Shown: positions 2,187-15,085 of the stretch, one piece after another
Position numbering within the stretch: the first letter of the stretch is position 1
Layout: each line of letters opens with the position of its first letter
Origin: a virus
DNA: 42,997 nt
Strand: one strand, 5' to 3'
IMG/VR virus record: IMGVR_UViG_3300042691_006710
Span: 1-42,997 of that record
Made by a program: the position numbers and the translations under genes
The notes under the pieces: generated by a model
Database searches by the model: none
Told to the model about the DNA's origin: nothing
What the model saw: only the letters and a program-made list of their open reading frames with translations

Positions 2187-3777
2187 CTAAATTAGACGAA
2201 ATAAAGATAGGCATCGGCATCTCCCAGTCATCGTCTACATGCCCTGAATGGCTGCTAATACTGTCAAACACACGTTCGTCCCAGTCTGCTAGCACTTGGC
2301 TCATACGTACCATTAGCAGGGTAGCACTAACTAAGTCGTCTTGTTCGCCAACTTTTGCTTTAAATGTTACACCGGCTGCTATGAATGCTTTTAGTTCAGA
2401 TATTAATGGCTTGCTGTTAATTTTCATTTTTCCGCTTTCAATCAAGAACTTTAAGCGGGCGCTAGCGGAAATCTTGCTGCCATGTGTGGTATTGAATCCT
2501 TTACGGAATTTGCGTACATGTCCTTTACGTACAGGTTCGCTAACAAATAATCCTGGAAAATTTTCTTCGCCTATGTCTTTAATACACACTAAACCTGCTT
2601 CTCCTACAGTATTATTTTCTATAGTCCAGTATAGATTATTGGCTGTTTCACCTGTTTCGTCTTGTATATATTTTAATATTTCCCTAAGAACTTTAATTTG
2701 CCCTTGAATAGGAGTTAAGTTATGTTGCCATTCGGCAACTTGTGTAAAACTAGGTAATTCAAATACTTCAATTGCAGCACTGTTACCGCCTGTACCTAGA
2801 CTAGGATCTAATGTAACTGCGTACATGCTGTCTCGGTTCAACTGTTTATACCAGCGAGTTTGTCCCATTCGCTGTACAGGTTCTTTGCCTTCTAGTCCTG
2901 CCAAACAAATGCTATTAATGAGTGTTTCGTCGTAGACTAAGAATTCGCAGTTATATTCTCGGCGGAATCGTTCTTCACCAATACGGCCACGTTCTGCTCT
3001 TTCCCATGCTTCATCTCTATCAGGATGCTCACTCCACTTACAGGTAAATGGAAAGAAACCGTTGATACCAGTTTCTTGTTCATTACCAAACTCGTCGAAC
3101 TTCTTGTTAGCTTCTTTCCAGATAGTGGCAAATGTATCTTCGTCGCTGTTAGGAGTGCTGGTCATAATACATTTACCACCTGTTGCCAGTGTAGGTGATA
3201 TAGAAGTCCAAAACTCATCAGCAATGTTAGGTGGAACAAATGCAAACTCGTCGCAGTATAGTAATGATATACTCATACCACGACCTGTATTGCCTGTAGT
3301 TGTTGTACTAACAATACGCGAGCCGTTATCAAACTCAATCGAACCTTTATTGTAGTTAGTTACACCACTACGAATATAATCAGGACATAACTCGTAAGCA
3401 TATCTTATACGTTGCATAATTTCCTGCGAACCGGTATACTTGTGAGCTGAAATTAGAATAGTCTGATCTGGATGAAACATGGCATACCATAACAAGTAAC
3501 CAGCAGCACAGGTAGTTTTACCCATCTGTCGAGGTAGCATGTTGATATTAAATCTATGCCCGTGATATGCATCTAATAATCTTGTTTGAAACTCGAACGG
3601 CTCAAACAACATTTTGCCTTTAACTGGATGTTGAATATAAAAATAATTGTTAGTAAAATAATGATAGCCTGTCTCAGGATCCGAGCAGGCGGCAAGATGC
3701 CGAATGTGTTCTTCGGTGAACGTTTCTCTTGCGTGTGCTTTTTTAGTTAGTACGCCATCTAGACTTTTATTTGCCAT
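2182..3777 (-). CDS. gp17: Terminase large subunit (gp17)
   Basis: This is the packaging motor ATPase and headful nuclease of T4-type phages, acting at the portal of the prohead. Motifs read directly: Walker A PRQMGKTT at 82-89, Walker B SLLYCDEF at 171-178 with the D-E pair, and coupling motif TSTPN at 207-211. In the C-terminal RNase H-like nuclease half, candidate acidic residues are D324 (TLDPSLGTGG), E387 (WTIENN) and D480/D481. At 531 residues it is somewhat shorter than T4 gp17 (610). The ATG at 3777 lacks a Shine-Dalgarno; a weak late box (AGTAAATA) ends five bases upstream, just after a terminator, so it probably has its own transcript. gp16 lies upstream on the same strand, separated by three small genes. 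Confidence 0.97.
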   Translation of the reverse strand: MANKSLDGVLTKKAHARETFTEEHIRHLAACSDPETGYHYFTNNYFYIQHPVKGKMLFEPFEFQTRLLDAYHGHRFNINMLPRQMGKTTCAAGYLLWYAMFHPDQTILISAHKYTGSQEIMQRIRYAYELCPDYIRSGVTNYNKGSIEFDNGSRIVSTTTTGNTGRGMSISLLYCDEFAFVPPNIADEFWTSISPTLATGGKCIMTSTPNSDEDTFATIWKEANKKFDEFGNEQETGINGFFPFTCKWSEHPDRDEAWERAERGRIGEERFRREYNCEFLVYDETLINSICLAGLEGKEPVQRMGQTRWYKQLNRDSMYAVTLDPSLGTGGNSAAIEVFELPSFTQVAEWQHNLTPIQGQIKVLREILKYIQDETGETANNLYWTIENNTVGEAGLVCIKDIGEENFPGLFVSEPVRKGHVRKFRKGFNTTHGSKISASARLKFLIESGKMKINSKPLISELKAFIAAGVTFKAKVGEQDDLVSATLLMVRMSQVLADWDERVFDSISSHSGHVDDDWEMPMPIFISSNLG

Positions 3778-3782
3778 ATTGT

Positions 3783-3790
3783 TATTTACT
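3783..3790 (-). promoter_or_regulatory. Late-promoter-like box AGTAAATA upstream of gp17
   Basis: AGTAAATA on the minus strand ends five bases before the gp17 ATG and starts directly after the T-tract of the preceding terminator. It differs from TATAAATA at two positions, so it is a weak match; the position between terminator and gene is what supports it. Confidence 0.35.
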
Positions 3791-3791
3791 G

Positions 3792-3819
3792 AAAAAAATA
3801 GCCTCCGAAGAGGCTATTT
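3792..3819 (-). terminator. UUCG-loop intrinsic terminator
   Basis: A perfect 10-bp stem (AAATAGCCTC with GAGGCTATTT) closes a C(UUCG)G tetraloop on the minus strand and is followed by a run of seven Ts. UUCG loops are common in T4 terminators. It lies about 30 bases after the stop codon of the leftward gene 3851-4483 and separates it from gp17. Confidence 0.9.
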
Positions 3820-3850
3820 GGCAGGGTCTCAATCACCCTAGCTGCACTGG

Positions 3851-4483
3851 TTATCTGTTTTTAATTTCTTCGTACAAACCTTTAAGCTGTTGGGCAATAC
3901 GTTCTGCCATTGGTTGCATTGGATTATCGCCGCCTGCTACTTTTGGAAATGTTTGCTTAGGTTTGTTTAGGTCTCCGCCGCCTTGTGTGACAGCATCGAT
4001 ACCTTGGTACATCTCGTCACCTAAAGGTTCTCTTTCTTGTTCGTCATCACCGCCTAGTGCTTTCATAACGATTGGCATGTCAGAATCCATTCCATCATGT
4101 CTTTGGTCCATGCCTGGCATTTCCATATCGCTGCCTTCGTCGCCGTCTAGGTTACGTAGGATATCCATAAGGTCGCGAATTCCGTTTGCGCCTGCGCCAT
4201 TCATACTAAGATTCATCGATACAGAATCTTGCTGTGGAGGAGTTCTCATACCCATCATGCCACCTGGCATGTCCATGCCGCATTCATCGATAAATGCTTC
4301 GTCGACTTCTTTTTCTTTTTCTTTGTCTTTAGGAAAAGCAGCTTTCATGCGACTGCCATAGTACTCGTCCTTGCCGCTTTCGATTTCTCCGTCACCGTCG
4401 TAATCTTTTTTAGCTTTGTCGCTTTCTTGTACGGCTTTTTGATCCAAGGTATCTAAGCGTGATAATAATTCTTGAAAATTCAT
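3851..4483 (-). CDS. Acidic Met/Gly-rich protein with EF-hand-like loop
   Basis: A 210-aa hypothetical protein. Near the N-terminus, D27-Y-D-G-D-G-E-I-E is a DxDGDGxI calcium-binding loop of the EF-hand/dockerin type, followed by a conserved-looking EYYGSRMKAA. The middle (about 65-160) is rich in Met, Gly and Asp and is probably disordered; the C-terminus (AERIAQQLKGLYEEI) is helical. Small proteins with this loop recur in aquatic T4-like phages (recollection), but I know no role; calcium binding is inferred only from the loop. Its ATG overlaps the stop of the upstream 46-aa ORF (ATGA), so translation is probably coupled. It ends at a strong terminator and is the last gene of the gp16 transcription unit. 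Confidence 0.75.
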   Translation of the reverse strand: MNFQELLSRLDTLDQKAVQESDKAKKDYDGDGEIESGKDEYYGSRMKAAFPKDKEKEKEVDEAFIDECGMDMPGGMMGMRTPPQQDSVSMNLSMNGAGANGIRDLMDILRNLDGDEGSDMEMPGMDQRHDGMDSDMPIVMKALGGDDEQEREPLGDEMYQGIDAVTQGGGDLNKPKQTFPKVAGGDNPMQPMAERIAQQLKGLYEEIKNR

Positions 4484-4620
4484 AATTGTTCTTCCTGTTG
4501 TTCTATGACAGTAGTCTCTACTTGTGTAACATTCAAGACTTCCGTTATGTTGATTGTAATTTGATTATTATCAGCTACAATTCCTTCTTGTTCTATAAGA
4601 TCGAGCTTGTCAGTACTCAT
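4480..4620 (-). CDS. Small 46-aa acidic ORF, translationally coupled
   Basis: Read on the minus strand from the ATG at 4620 this ORF starts MSTDKLDLIEQEGIVAD and ends in a Glu/Gln-rich tail. Its ATG overlaps the stop of the upstream 200-aa gene (ATGA at 4617-4620), and its own stop overlaps the ATG of the 210-aa gene (ATGA at 4480-4483). This double coupling exactly fills the gap between two real genes, which supports it as a true gene despite its size. There is no recognised domain and no Shine-Dalgarno is needed if it is coupled. Function unknown. Confidence 0.65.
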   Translation of the reverse strand: MSTDKLDLIEQEGIVADNNQITINITEVLNVTQVETTVIEQQEEQL

Positions 4621-5219
4621 TTCTTAGATCCAAACAAACTCTTAGCAGGACCTACTTTAGGCATTGGTTCTGCTTTTTCTTTGTGGGCACTCTTGGCCAA
4701 CAATTTTTCGTTAACACCTTTTATTTGTGTTAATTGTTTTTCTTTAGATGCTTTGGCAACGTCTTTTAAGAAACTACTAATCATTTTATCGCCGAACAAT
4801 CCTTGATTGTTTGACTTTTCATAACCCTGTGATAACAATGCTTCGCCTTTGTCATCTAATGTCATATTTTCTGCTTCGATGGCAGCATTTGCTTCTTCGA
4901 GCGGTGTGCGTACACGAATAGCTTCTCTGCTGATACCAGTACTATTTGCTAATAATTCAGATAGCACAGCACTTGTAGCTGGATAATCTAGTTCTACTTC
5001 AAACACTGTCATAGAACTGTTTTTAAGTGTAGGAAAGTCTAATAGATGAGATTGGATAGGAGTATTTTTACCTTTGGTAAATCTGCTTACTTTGTATTGT
5101 TGTAGTGCGGTTTCCATAACATCTTCGCAGTTATCCGGAAGATCACCCGCTACTTTAATTTTAAAAGCATATTTTTTCTCTTCTACACTTTCTTGTAGGT
5201 ATGCGCTGAATAGTTTCAT
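4617..5219 (-). CDS. Conserved 200-aa protein with possible capsid-targeting leader
   Basis: The N-terminus MKLFSAYLQES resembles T4 capsid-targeting leaders such as MKTYQEFIAEA, with an L-Q-E site that would suit the prohead protease gp21. After it comes a compact alpha/beta region (about 15-105) with TPIQSHLLDFPTLKNSSM and a Tyr-Pro-Ala-Thr helix start, then a Lys/Glu-rich helical tail ending PAKSLFGSKK. Proteins of this pattern occur beside head genes in aquatic T4-like phages (recollection). Function is unknown; an internal head protein is possible. It follows gp16 by 17 bases, with a late-type box AATAAATA overlapping the gp16 stop and a modest Shine-Dalgarno (CAGGA) upstream of the ATG. 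Confidence 0.75.
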   Translation of the reverse strand: MKLFSAYLQESVEEKKYAFKIKVAGDLPDNCEDVMETALQQYKVSRFTKGKNTPIQSHLLDFPTLKNSSMTVFEVELDYPATSAVLSELLANSTGISREAIRVRTPLEEANAAIEAENMTLDDKGEALLSQGYEKSNNQGLFGDKMISSFLKDVAKASKEKQLTQIKGVNEKLLAKSAHKEKAEPMPKVGPAKSLFGSKK

Positions 5220-11754: not shown

Positions 11755-12093
11755 ATGGCAAGACCGTTATGTATTTGTGGATTTAGACCAGCAGCCGTTA
11801 ACTATATTAAGAACGGTCGCACCTACTATAGGAAAAAATGCGAAAGCTGTCTAGCAGGTGGTGTAGGACATGGCATCCCAAAATGGTATTCCGACGGATA
11901 CCGTATGAAAAGTGTCTGCGATAAATGCGGCTTTAAAAGCAAACACAGTGAACATTTTAACGTCTTTCATGTAGACGGCAATCTCAATAACAGTAGGCCA
12001 CTAAATTTAAAAACTGTCTGTGCTAACTGTCAGCGTACTCTAGCTAAAGAAGGTGTTAAGTGGACTCAGGGTGGGCTTCAACCAGATTTTTAA
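11755..12093 (+). CDS. Zinc-binding HNH / endonuclease VII-like protein
   Basis: A 112-aa protein from the ATG at 11755 (MARPLCICG). It has an N-terminal knuckle (C6-x-C8, C29-x2-C32) and an HNH-type core: C55-x2-C58, then H72-V-D74-G-N-L-N-N with a later N-L, then C89-x2-C92. The arrangement matches small HNH or endonuclease VII-like proteins common in aquatic T4-like phages. A nuclease is likely but unproven; a zinc-binding regulator is the alternative. The frame is open back to 11692, but a perfect late box ends four bases before 11755, so the shorter start is preferred. It is isolated on the plus strand, divergent from gp18, and its 3' end overlaps the convergent dNMP kinase by 38 bases. 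Confidence 0.75.
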   Translation: MARPLCICGFRPAAVNYIKNGRTYYRKKCESCLAGGVGHGIPKWYSDGYRMKSVCDKCGFKSKHSEHFNVFHVDGNLNNSRPLNLKTVCANCQRTLAKEGVKWTQGGLQPDF

Positions 12094-12703
12094 TTTGCGC
12101 AAACAAGTCGTCTATAGAACCGTTGTTGTCAATTTCTGAGTCGATACCTCTGCCAATCCATGCTGTTTCGCTAGCATGAATTCCTAATCGTTCCATTCGC
12201 ACTTTACTAATGGACCAACTCATATTACTGTGCCCTTGATTAACATTCCAAGCATCTTGATACCACTCAGGATCGCTGCCGCGCACTACACGCACTACTT
12301 GTCCGCCTGCGTTTTTAATAGCTTTAATTTCATTAGGAAAACGTACATCACTAATCACAATGTTATCTTTAGTTTTACGCATCTTGTTTTCCAAGCTGGC
12401 AATCCAAATATCATCATGGAAACCGTTACGGCAAACTTCTGTGCCCCATTGTTGTAAAATCCATCTTGGAGTTAGATTAGGTTTGTTTAAACGTTCTGCC
12501 CACCAAGTATCGACTTGTTCTCGCCATTCACGAGCTTCTTTTGTACGGCCTTCTAGCAGTGTTCTGTCCCAGCCAAACACTGCCGACACTGCGTCTTTGA
12601 GAGTGTTGGCAAAACTGTCTCTTCTAAAGCCATGAAAATTAACCAAATAGTCTGCGGCAGTATCTTTGCCAGAACCGATAAAACCTACGAAGCCTATAAT
12701 CAT
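12056..12703 (-). CDS. gp1: Deoxynucleoside monophosphate kinase (T4 gp1 type)
   Basis: Phosphorylates dNMPs to dNDPs for phage DNA synthesis in the host cytoplasm. The P-loop is G7-F-I-G-S-G-K-D-T15; an Asp after the Lys is typical of the T4 gp1 family. Other signatures are QQWGTEVCRNGFHDDIW (84-100), ISDVRFPNE (117-125) and HASETAW (176-182). At 215 residues it is slightly shorter than T4 gp1 (241). It has its own sigma-70-like promoter and AGGAG Shine-Dalgarno, unlike the surrounding late genes, which fits expression earlier in infection. The 3' end overlaps the convergent HNH gene. Confidence 0.9.
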   Translation of the reverse strand: MIIGFVGFIGSGKDTAADYLVNFHGFRRDSFANTLKDAVSAVFGWDRTLLEGRTKEAREWREQVDTWWAERLNKPNLTPRWILQQWGTEVCRNGFHDDIWIASLENKMRKTKDNIVISDVRFPNEIKAIKNAGGQVVRVVRGSDPEWYQDAWNVNQGHSNMSWSISKVRMERLGIHASETAWIGRGIDSEIDNNGSIDDLFAQIKNLVEAHPEST

Positions 12704-12778: not shown

Positions 12779-13408
12779 TTAAGCTAAGTGTTTCAAAAGT
12801 TGATCAATTTGGTCAGTATTTGTACGGCTCAATTTAAATCCCAAACGACTGGCGTTGCTAGCTCTTGTACGGTTTAATGGGTGTGTGCTGTTAGGATCCT
12901 GTTGTAATGCGCCAGACATATCTAAGTTATACATTGCTGCATCCTTTTTTCCAGCCATAAACTTAAATACCGCAGTTTTTTTATATCCTAATTTCATTGC
13001 TAACTGTATACCATAATCGTCGGCATCTAATTCTTCTTGACGTGTTGCTGCTGGACTAGCTGATAATTCATCAGGATGTTTAAGTGCTATGTGTCCTAAT
13101 TCATGTCCTATTGCAAATGCTAGTACATCATCCGGTGCATCCCAAAATACTGTTAAATCTATGCTGATAGATCTATTTTGTGGAGTACTTTGTATGTAAC
13201 TTTGATTGCTTTCTACCTTAATTACTACATCTTTAAGATCGGCAGCTTGACTACTAGCTTGTATCAAACGTTGTAACATAGAATTACATCGTGCAGCTAA
13301 TGTACGGAATCTTGGTGCCCACACTTTTTCAAATTCTTGCCTATTACTTGTTATTTGATCGCCAGGCTGATATTCACCTTCGGTTACAATTATTTCTCTT
13401 ACTTTCAT
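12779..13408 (-). CDS. M48-type zinc metalloprotease with candidate capsid-targeting leader
   Basis: A 209-aa protein. The gluzincin core is GHELGHIALKHPDE with H102-E103-L-G-H106. A downstream QEELDADDYG (124-133) supplies the third ligand, probably E126, and STHPLNRTRA (174-183) matches the Ser-Thr-His-Pro motif of M48 peptidases. There is no membrane segment or secretion signal, unlike HtpX or BepA. The first residues MKVREIIVTEG match the leaders of the two upstream genes and resemble T4 capsid-targeting leaders, so the protease may be packaged and injected. It starts one base from the stop of the 125-aa gene, last in a gp13-led unit. The substrate is unknown; host defence or host proteins are possibilities. 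Confidence 0.88.
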   Translation of the reverse strand: MKVREIIVTEGEYQPGDQITSNRQEFEKVWAPRFRTLAARCNSMLQRLIQASSQAADLKDVVIKVESNQSYIQSTPQNRSISIDLTVFWDAPDDVLAFAIGHELGHIALKHPDELSASPAATRQEELDADDYGIQLAMKLGYKKTAVFKFMAGKKDAAMYNLDMSGALQQDPNSTHPLNRTRASNASRLGFKLSRTNTDQIDQLLKHLA

Positions 13409-13409
13409 G

Positions 13410-13787
13410 TTAGACGCCGTACTTATTTCGTTTAGGTTTCGCCACAGGACTAGTTTTTTGAACGCTATCTAATTCTAAGCTACGCATGTCGCCGTGGTTA
13501 AGATCGTCATATTCAGCTCCTACTGCCTTTGCTGCTTTCTTAAACATCTCGTTTTCAACTTCGGTGTATGGGTGAACTGTTTTCTTTTTACCGTGCCAAC
13601 TTTTAGCATCGATATCAGGTGCTGTTTTACCATCGGTGCCTGCCATGGCTTGCCCTAGTTTAAAAGCTACATAGTCACTGTTGGCTCGTTCAGCATCGCC
13701 GTAGATGCTTATACCGCGACTGGATTGATTTTGTCGTTTGGTAATTTTAGCACGTTTTGCTTCTGAGATAATTTCTTTAACTTTCAT
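13410..13787 (-). CDS. Basic 125-aa protein with candidate capsid-targeting leader
   Basis: The N-terminus MKVKEIISEAKRAKI is close to the T4 internal-protein leader MKTYQEFIAEA, with I-S-E/A a good prohead-protease site. The rest is Lys/Arg-rich with a central GKKKTVHPYTEVENEMFKKA segment and a C-terminal SPVAKPKRNKYGV that I believe recurs in phage proteins. No enzymatic motif is visible. The size, basic charge and leader fit an internal head protein carried with DNA; this is inference. It is packed between the DUF6321-like gene (adjacent stop and start) and the metalloprotease (one-base gap), so the three are probably co-expressed after gp13. Confidence 0.75.
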   Translation of the reverse strand: MKVKEIISEAKRAKITKRQNQSSRGISIYGDAERANSDYVAFKLGQAMAGTDGKTAPDIDAKSWHGKKKTVHPYTEVENEMFKKAAKAVGAEYDDLNHGDMRSLELDSVQKTSPVAKPKRNKYGV

Positions 13788-14318
13788 TTAACAATTCCAT
13801 TTGCGCAAAGCTAGGGCCTTACGAGTGGGTTTGCCGTTGGGCTTCTTCATAGGACCTTTAACTCCGCCCATTCTAGCACAGAATGATTTACGGCGTTTTG
13901 CGGCCTTGCTGCCTTTTTTAAGTTTACTAGGTTTAGTAGTCACTGCCATTTGTAGTTTGCTACCTGGATTTTCTCTACGATAACTGGCCACACCTTTGGC
14001 GTTGAGTCCACCTTTTTTACTTTTGCCAGCACTGCGGCGCCATGCGGCAGTTTCTAACAATTCGTTGTCATCCACGCTGTCAAAGTCTTCCCAGATAACA
14101 TCTGGATCAACTCCGTGTTCTTCGGCCAGTTGTTCAACTAGATCTTCAATAAGATCAAACTGTTCATCTAAGGTTAGTTCTTCTTTGATTTTTTCGCAGT
14201 CGTTTACACGCTTGCCTTTATTTTTACCAGTGCCAGGCTGAGTGCCGACTTTTCTGTGTCCTGGCCAGCACTTCTGTGGACCTGCAACATTTTCTGTTAG
14301 TATTTCATGTACTTTCAT
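13788..14318 (-). CDS. Basic DUF6321-like protein with candidate capsid-targeting leader
   Basis: A 176-aa protein in three parts. The leader MKVHEILTEN has an I-L-T-E site. A Cys-containing basic segment (KCWPGHRKVG to NDCEKI, 16-44) is followed by an acidic helix (46-90). The strongly basic C-terminal domain (93-176) contains WRRSAGKSKKGGLNAKG, SYRRENPGSKLQ and KRRKSFCARMGGVKGPM, the signature I associate with the DUF6321 phage family. L87-L-E/T is a second possible prohead-protease site that would release this basic domain. The charge suggests DNA association. The gene starts two bases after the gp13 stop. Function is not established. Confidence 0.78.
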   Translation of the reverse strand: MKVHEILTENVAGPQKCWPGHRKVGTQPGTGKNKGKRVNDCEKIKEELTLDEQFDLIEDLVEQLAEEHGVDPDVIWEDFDSVDDNELLETAAWRRSAGKSKKGGLNAKGVASYRRENPGSKLQMAVTTKPSKLKKGSKAAKRRKSFCARMGGVKGPMKKPNGKPTRKALALRKWNC

Positions 14319-14320
14319 AA

Positions 14321-15085
14321 TTATCCAATCACAAATGTCATAGGAGTGCCGCCCGACACTAGAGTTTCAAGTTCTTTATCTAATTTTTCTATTTCTTCTT
14401 TACTGGCTGCTTTTAGGTCACTACCGTTGAGTTGTGTACCACCGCTCGGACCAGCAATTTGAGCAAACTTGCTACGAGCTTCGCCTAGTATACCTTTACA
14501 AACTGCCAGACTATAATCTCTAATCCATTGCTTGGCGTATAGATCATTTATAAGGTTGTAATCAGGTCTATAGTTGTAGCAACGAAGCATGATTGTTTCG
14601 CCATCAACAAACGGTCTTTGTAATATTCTTAATATATGGCTTTGTTGAATCCACTGAAATTCAATATAGCTACCGAACATACGGCCAACCATTTCTTGAT
14701 ATTGAGCAAACATATCGTACGTAGCAATACCGCCTAACATGGTACTGTTTAACAAGTATGTGTTAGTATAGGCAAGATTAAATGGTTCAAAATTAGTGCC
14801 TGTTCCACCGCCCGATCTAGATCCTAGCGTTCGTCTAAACACACTTTGTACAGCGATAACTTCGTCGGGCAATCTGTAATCGTTTTTGTCTTTTTCTAGT
14901 TCCAAAAACATGTAGCTTTCTTCAACAGCATTAGGGCTACGTTGCCTGAAGCGGTTAATAGTTTTTTCCAGGGCTGTTTCAAAATGGATAGGATCTAGTT
15001 CAACATCGATCATACCATCTGCCAGCATAGTGCGGCAATAATCGTATACTTTTTGTCTTTCAGCTTGTGGATTTGTTTCTGACAT
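14321..15085 (-). CDS. gp13: Neck protein (gp13)
   Basis: In T4, gp13 and gp14 form the neck that closes the packaged head and receives the tail. The 254-aa protein follows the family pattern: VYDYCRTMLADGMIDVELDP and FETALEKTINRFRQRSPNAVEESY at 14-63, then DYRLPDEVIAVQSVFRR, a central segment ILRILQRPFVDGETIMLRCYNYRPD, and KQWIRDYSLAVCKGILGEARSKFAQIAGPSGG with a short C-terminal tail ending in FVIG. It is shorter than T4 gp13 (309 aa) but close in form to homologues in aquatic T4-like phages. A Shine-Dalgarno (GGGAGA) and a late box in the adjoining palindrome lie upstream. It is divergent from the gp14-like and gp15 genes, unlike T4, where 13-14-15 are co-directional. Confidence 0.82.
   Translation of the reverse strand: MSETNPQAERQKVYDYCRTMLADGMIDVELDPIHFETALEKTINRFRQRSPNAVEESYMFLELEKDKNDYRLPDEVIAVQSVFRRTLGSRSGGGTGTNFEPFNLAYTNTYLLNSTMLGGIATYDMFAQYQEMVGRMFGSYIEFQWIQQSHILRILQRPFVDGETIMLRCYNYRPDYNLINDLYAKQWIRDYSLAVCKGILGEARSKFAQIAGPSGGTQLNGSDLKAASKEEIEKLDKELETLVSGGTPMTFVIG

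Follow-up and report, generated by a model that had tools for sequence, protein, structure and literature searches.

The internal head proteins of phage T4 are among the closest described counterparts of the proteins discussed here. In the T4 record ipII and ipIII both start MKTYQEFIAE/A (a slash marks a cut site, known or predicted), and the same record gives MAKINELLRE/S for the shell protein gp24 and FLTE/A for gp23. The original prediction for our locus took MKTYQEFIAE followed by A to be the leader of the T4 internal proteins in general; this is exact for ipII and ipIII, but ipI has a longer leader, with ITE/A. T4 Alt is an ADP-ribosyltransferase that is packaged and injected. The polyvalent proteins of phages and conjugative elements are also predicted to be packaged and injected (PMC5512222, the text of which mentions neither M48 nor signal peptides).

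The DNA analysed here (the window) is the whole of an IMG/VR record of 42,997 bases from a giant T4-like freshwater phage, and the record ends short of the capsid genes. At 12779-14318 the minus strand carries three ORFs in direct succession, and their proteins share a leader of the form MKVxEI[IL]xE; these are the same three adjacent genes, with N-termini MKVREIIVTE, MKVKEIISEA and MKVHEILTEN, that had been picked out in the original prediction. The setting is a T4-like neck and tail region. A homologue of the head-tail adaptor Ad2 (14321..15085, minus strand; PHROG 211, E 1.5e-32) forms the upstream border of the cassette, and a deoxynucleoside monophosphate kinase (12056..12703, minus strand; PHROG 139, E 3.7e-55) forms the downstream border, followed by tail sheath, tail tubes, head closure and terminase. 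We think it quite probable that the cassette encodes T4-type capsid-targeted internal proteins, with an M48 protease as an optional and probably injected cargo. Packaging of the three proteins is likely, and we infer their cleavage, injection and target.

Gene A (13788..14318) encodes a protein of 176 aa with an acidic middle and a basic C-terminal DUF6321 domain (78.8 bits against a Pfam cut-off of 28.5, with PHROG matches as well), and the leader is kept in its relatives. Gene B (13410..13787) encodes a basic protein of 125 aa that has no match in Pfam or PHROG and no relatives among cultured phages; it has 79 relatives, of which those aligned, from other uncultured phages, show 50-86% identity, and its structure model is unusable (pLDDT 47). 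Gene C (12779..13408) encodes the M48 zinc metalloprotease, of 209 aa. The products of genes A and B are very basic, as had been claimed, with pI 9.7 and 9.5 respectively, the charge of the former being divided between an acidic N-terminal half (about -10) and a basic C-terminal half (about +21); that of gene C is near neutral at 6.5. No cassette protein has more than one domain recognised by Pfam, and when the first 10 residues were removed BLASTP among the three gave self matches only, so the bodies are indeed unrelated to each other.

The leaders are at 14292..14318 (gene A, MKVHEILTE/N), 13761..13787 (gene B, MKVKEIISE/A) and 13379..13408 (gene C, MKVREIIVTE/GEYQ), all on the minus strand. 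From the sequence and the leader profile the cut is predicted after residue 9 in genes A (L-T-E/N) and B (I-S-E/A), and after residue 10 in gene C, which has a leader one residue longer and a V-T-E/G site that is a conservative variant of the [LI]-x-E motif; this agrees with the site proposed earlier for residues 7-10. T4 gp21 is expected to cut V-T-E less well. The longer form is found on seven other leaders, for example MRLREFFIKE. The consensus of the 109 unique leaders that have E at residue 9 when aligned is M-[KR]-[AIVS]-x-[ED]-[FI]-[ILV]-x-E/[ASGE]. It had been suggested that homologous phages be searched for the same leader on non-homologous genes, and in the first 165 loci it is present on 192 ORFs of at least 22 body families, although these counts are not a random sample as the loci were gathered through the window's own genes. 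In one record (G012) nine consecutive genes have leaders. Among the leader proteins are two of the DUF6267 family (L007:4040-5188 and G001:33831-34982) in which KWDG resembles the KxDG of nucleotidyltransferases and ligases, making them possible packaged ligases, and one that starts MRANEFITEA (L004:5429-5914), has no Pfam match and includes YHAT...RIL...GL, a pattern that recalls ADP-ribosyltransferases, T4 Alt among them.

The borders provided by Ad2 and the kinase are the same in relatives, and the slot between them is occupied by varying combinations of DUF6321 proteins, gene B, the M48 protease and a LysM-like protein (MRAREFLKEE, L157), the leader letters varying while the bodies stay. 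The M48 gene is present in the window and in L002 and absent from L009, L092/G001 and others. In the cultured relative PA5oct Ad2 adjoins the kinase with nothing between, and the cassette is thus a variable insert at that junction.

The protease expected to remove such leaders is of family S77 (PF03420). Of 27 related or contrast records 12 have a match to it above the curated cut-off, and of 14 control genomes none does; most of the longest related records have it, and those with no match are mostly fragments. The 43-kb window fragment itself ends before that gene. However it is present in the 383-kb syntenic relative G001, whose neck and tail region is collinear with that of the window (DNA about 82-90% identical) and has the gene order Ad2, DUF6321, gene B, kinase, sheath, as in the window but without M48. 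Capsid proteins of the clade have a similar site ahead of a conserved stretch (KYLAE/SASAGATSAGN in G001, FLVE/NASAGATQAGN in PA5oct).

Turning to gene C, the product passes the Pfam M48 model with 41.7 bits against a cut-off of 20.3, and the HELGH zinc-binding motif (13091..13105, minus strand; residues 102-106) is the invariant HExxH of a 17-member alignment of M48 relatives, in which H102, E103, H106, E126, D130, P177 and R182 are all invariant. The active-site residues are intact and the protein belongs to family M48, with proteolysis itself predicted, in keeping with the original description of an HELGH metalloprotease. The AlphaFold model (pLDDT 79, pTM 0.79) has a disordered leader, and its best solved match is BepA (Z 11.3, rmsd 3.9 over 145 residues, 16% identity), followed by a Geobacter M48 protein (Z 10.3) and other zincins (Z 9-10), with the best Foldseek E-values only about 0.004. 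The protein is nevertheless not a BepA, having no signal peptide and no Pfam TPR match at 209 aa. The description of the enzyme as cytosolic-type is also unsupported, because BepA and the Geobacter M48 protein are the closest solved folds, and many close relatives have a Tat signal behind the leader while the window protein has none. Among 50,697 records of cultured phages there is no relative of the window M48 protein, and for the relative in L004 there is one weak partial match. A bacterial source for the gene was set aside after one scan of genome_contigs, in which the sole match was a weak one to a Planctomycete (35% across 67 residues).

Nearly every N-terminus among the M48 relatives has a leader or near-leader, and in L003-L005, L211, L219-L221, L223, L228 and L231 it is followed immediately by a putative Tat signal. 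The tandem reads MRANEFINE/DINRRDLLKGVAGAALLGATGLAKA/GEYQ, where the window has MKVREIIVTE/GEYQ, and GEYQ thus follows the predicted cut in both forms, so that cutting by two different proteases would give one and the same mature start. A distant relative with 27% identity (L237) has MRANEFITE/ITRRDLLRG...AAQA/GEFQ. That M48 relatives carry the leader directly before an export signal suggests that the phage head delivers proteins and that in some relatives these are passed further, to the outer compartment of the host. In L218, L226 and L227 the M48 unit forms part of polyproteins about 1,500 aa long. It has LSE/VDRR, LNE/ADRR or LSE/IDRR beside the Tat signal and HLAE/ on its other side, which falls exactly where the stand-alone versions end, with HLA and a stop.

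The Tat signals on leader proteins are assigned by motif; in L004 the GP88 protein passes Pfam TAT_signal (23.4 bits against a cut-off of 22.7) and the M48 protein is below it at 20.0. Scans of viral_contigs with the Tat core RRGFLKGA, which are blind to leaders, gave further leader and Tat proteins in L250, L251, L256, L259, L265 and probably L304, and a later scan of the collection gave L324 and L338 among the matches listed; these eight are mutually unrelated. The one in L265 has a lipobox-like LSGC. Tat signals internal to polyproteins are usually no more than 7 residues after an [LIV]xE site, for which the base rates are 6-9%: GVAE/DLSRRGFLKG (L286), GVAE/DISRRG (L287), VEE/ADLNRRG (L290), IAE/DMSRRG (L299), GVAE/ADLNRRG (L308) and LEE/DITRRG (L310), with TDE/ preceding that of L295. 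In a separate set all six internal Tat signals fit the site rule (base rates 7-13%; three are homologous). In contrast the internal Tat-like segments of L246, L261 and L267 have no site just upstream, and S77 was not found in these records, which at about 26, 50 and 26 kb may be fragments. The L287 polyprotein (2348-4087, minus strand) starts MRLRQLFEA and has a nucleotidyltransferase-like N-terminus and, besides the internal Tat signal that follows GVAE, a kinase domain resembling zeta toxin (Pfam E 1e-16).

The GVAE sites belong to a micro-repeat. QGVAE was observed 35 times in polyproteins against 0.43 expected, with related copies included, and its DNA is nearly invariant over 20 nt, AGCAAGGTGTGGCGGAAGGC, coding QGVAE/G. 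Approximate copies are in the QGVAE frame in 66 of 66 cases in the loci examined; the collection scan gave at least 100 unique exact 18-nt copies, 99 of 100 in that frame among the matches listed. A single polyprotein can have as many as six GVAE sites, and the repeat is often between unlike sequence stretches and once directly before a Tat signal (L286). It occurs in L010, L024, L032, L044, L072, L112, L286, L295, L299, L308 and L312-L391, again among the matches listed, and is absent from the window. By its motif QGVAE resembles a prohead-protease site, and the micro-repeat may be both protease site and recombination joint. We tentatively suggest, giving it somewhat less than even weight, a two-step delivery in which the prohead protease would cut tagged cargo and polyprotein sites within the capsid and so uncover Tat signals, folded enzymes including M48 would, once injected, be exported to the periplasm by the host Tat system, and the repeat would provide places to cut between effector domains that have been shuffled.

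The polyproteins also bear on another interpretation of the protease, that it is packaged with a substrate made by the phage and trims packaged or injected phage polyproteins, with no host target attacked. Such processing has been proposed for the zincin domains of polyvalent proteins (PMC5512222), and the ~1,500-aa polyproteins that include M48 relatives have putative cut sites. However these sites fit the S77 protease that is already present, and the Tat signal on many M48 relatives would remove the enzyme from cytoplasmic phage proteins, and we regard this interpretation as unlikely.

Somewhat less probable again is that the leader is an assembly tag for binding to scaffold or neck, with the proteins staying as parts of the virion and none injected as an effector. 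The position of the cassette among neck and tail genes fits this, as do the presence of the same kind of leader on the T4 gp24 shell protein and the structural annotation of cyanophage DUF6321 relatives. Against it, a protease is an improbable structural component, and not every slot contains this one, and leaders are found on enzymes too. The evidence for the latter is from the T4-like cyanophage S-CREM2 (genome OR473000), for which a virion proteome is published (PMC10665884). Over the genome up to its last 25 kb, the T4-type leader MKx[FL]xxFLxE is on 4 of 43 virion-detected proteins and 0 of 155 undetected ones, with a p-value (0.002) that is a guide only because the pattern was written after the N-termini were seen. 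The four are a SAM hydrolase (ORF6, MKDFDSFLEE), a small protein (ORF13, MKDLHSFLTE), a kinase (ORF14, MKRFDAFLTE) and a cytidylyltransferase (ORF154, MKNFSSFLTE); an automated count gave 3/42 against 0/156 (p=0.009), ORF14 not being listed, probably due to an upstream start chosen by the ORF caller. These leaders are closer to those of T4 than to those of the window. The virion-detected Cas9 (ORF12) has a longer leader-like start ending RFASFMAE/A. The passages of PMC10665884 on the proteome do not mention leaders, and its authors caution that such proteins could be lysate carry-over.

PA5oct, for which the record has ESI-MS/MS notes, has leaders on 4 of 93 virion proteins and 3 of 353 others (p=0.037), an enrichment that is weak because the pattern was fixed after looking. 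This and the leaderless genes that are also found in the slot at three loci (L122, L128, L142) are among the points against our preferred reading of the cassette as capsid-targeted cargo, as is the V-T-E site of gene C. The PA5oct record (NC_071039) has three adjacent leader-like starts at 260677-262300, MRLNEINLIE, MKILEFNLTE and MKLSEICILE, the first two annotated ESI-MS/MS. A check of DUF6321 against these virion data by its FCARM motif found none in PA5oct or in the stretch of S-CREM2 covered.

For the window and five related records the leader regex matches 23 of 646 ATG-ORF N-termini, and in the window alone it matches 3 of 28 ORFs, which are exactly the three adjacent cassette genes. 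A head protein of the window (4617-5219, minus strand; weak PHROG 14802 match) begins MKLFSAYLQES, which is leader-like and outside the regex. Short motifs do recur by chance and an MK start is common in phage genes, but we reject as very improbable a chance likeness or common translation-start sequence with no targeting role, since in those six records the regex matches 0 of 3,634 internal methionines and only 20 of 129,200 shuffled N-termini, leader proteins are commoner among the detected than the undetected S-CREM2 proteins, and the acidic residue 5 and the E at residue 9 are kept on unrelated bodies. The leader codons of the cassette genes have several synonymous differences, so the likeness is at the protein level. 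The non-homologous bodies, the conserved site motif, S77 in relatives (including the syntenic one) and the S-CREM2 virion link together support the leader being by its behaviour a modular T4-type capsid-targeting sequence, as was originally proposed.

On this basis we suggest that the cassette comprises head-cargo genes, probably expressed late. The leader of 9-10 residues, of the type of T4 internal proteins and gp24, would send each protein into the prohead, where, judging by motif and context, an S77 (gp21-type) protease would remove it after [LIV]-x-E. Genes A and B probably encode regular internal proteins that associate with the DNA. The M48 protease would be an optional passenger of the slot between Ad2 and the kinase, carried in the head and entering the host with the DNA, there to act early as a BepA-like envelope-type protease. 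In many close relatives the leader cut would uncover the Tat signal and the injected enzyme could be exported to the periplasm. The window enzyme, with the same GEYQ mature N-terminus, would have lost the Tat signal or never had it, and is thus more likely to work in the cytoplasm, or at whatever place the ejection stream carries it to. For the target, the Tat-bearing relatives and the fold point to the envelope, with the window protein having no export signal.

Should the leader prove dependable as a packaging tag beyond the T-even phages, sequence alone would be enough to list likely injected effectors in many uncultured giant phages with unknown early takeover tools. An M48 protease that is injected, and possibly exported by Tat, would if confirmed be a new kind of cargo, with phages acting on the host envelope from inside at entry. 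The leader and Tat tandem and the in-frame QGVAE micro-repeat both give predictions that can be tested with ordinary laboratory reporters. Our search of the literature, which covered mainly non-subscription journal articles, on DUF6321, on Tat in phage virions or jumbo phages and on M48 in phage virions or ejection, found no paper describing such systems.

With regard to the known systems, the cassette resembles T4 IPI, IPII and IPIII in having a short E[FI][IL]xE leader and cut site common to unrelated proteins, a variable gene set and an S77 protease in the genome, here that of the syntenic relative. It differs in that the bodies are an M48 protease, a DUF6321 protein and an orphan family, where those of T4 are GmrSD inhibitors, in the leader letters (MKVxEI or MRAxEF), and in that some relatives add a Tat signal or are in polyproteins. 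Like Alt, the M48 protein is an enzyme proposed to travel in the head and to act early as an effector, but it is a protease and not a transferase, and its injection is a prediction. Gene C shares with BepA/YfgC and other bacterial M48 proteins the M48 core, with HExxH and the Glu ligand, but at 209 aa has no room for a TPR domain, and has a capsid leader in place of a signal peptide. Finally, like the polyvalent proteins, relatives of gene C are found in multidomain proteins (L218, L226 and L227) beside a nucleotidyltransferase-like N-terminus and an amidoligase domain, but in the window the protease stands alone.
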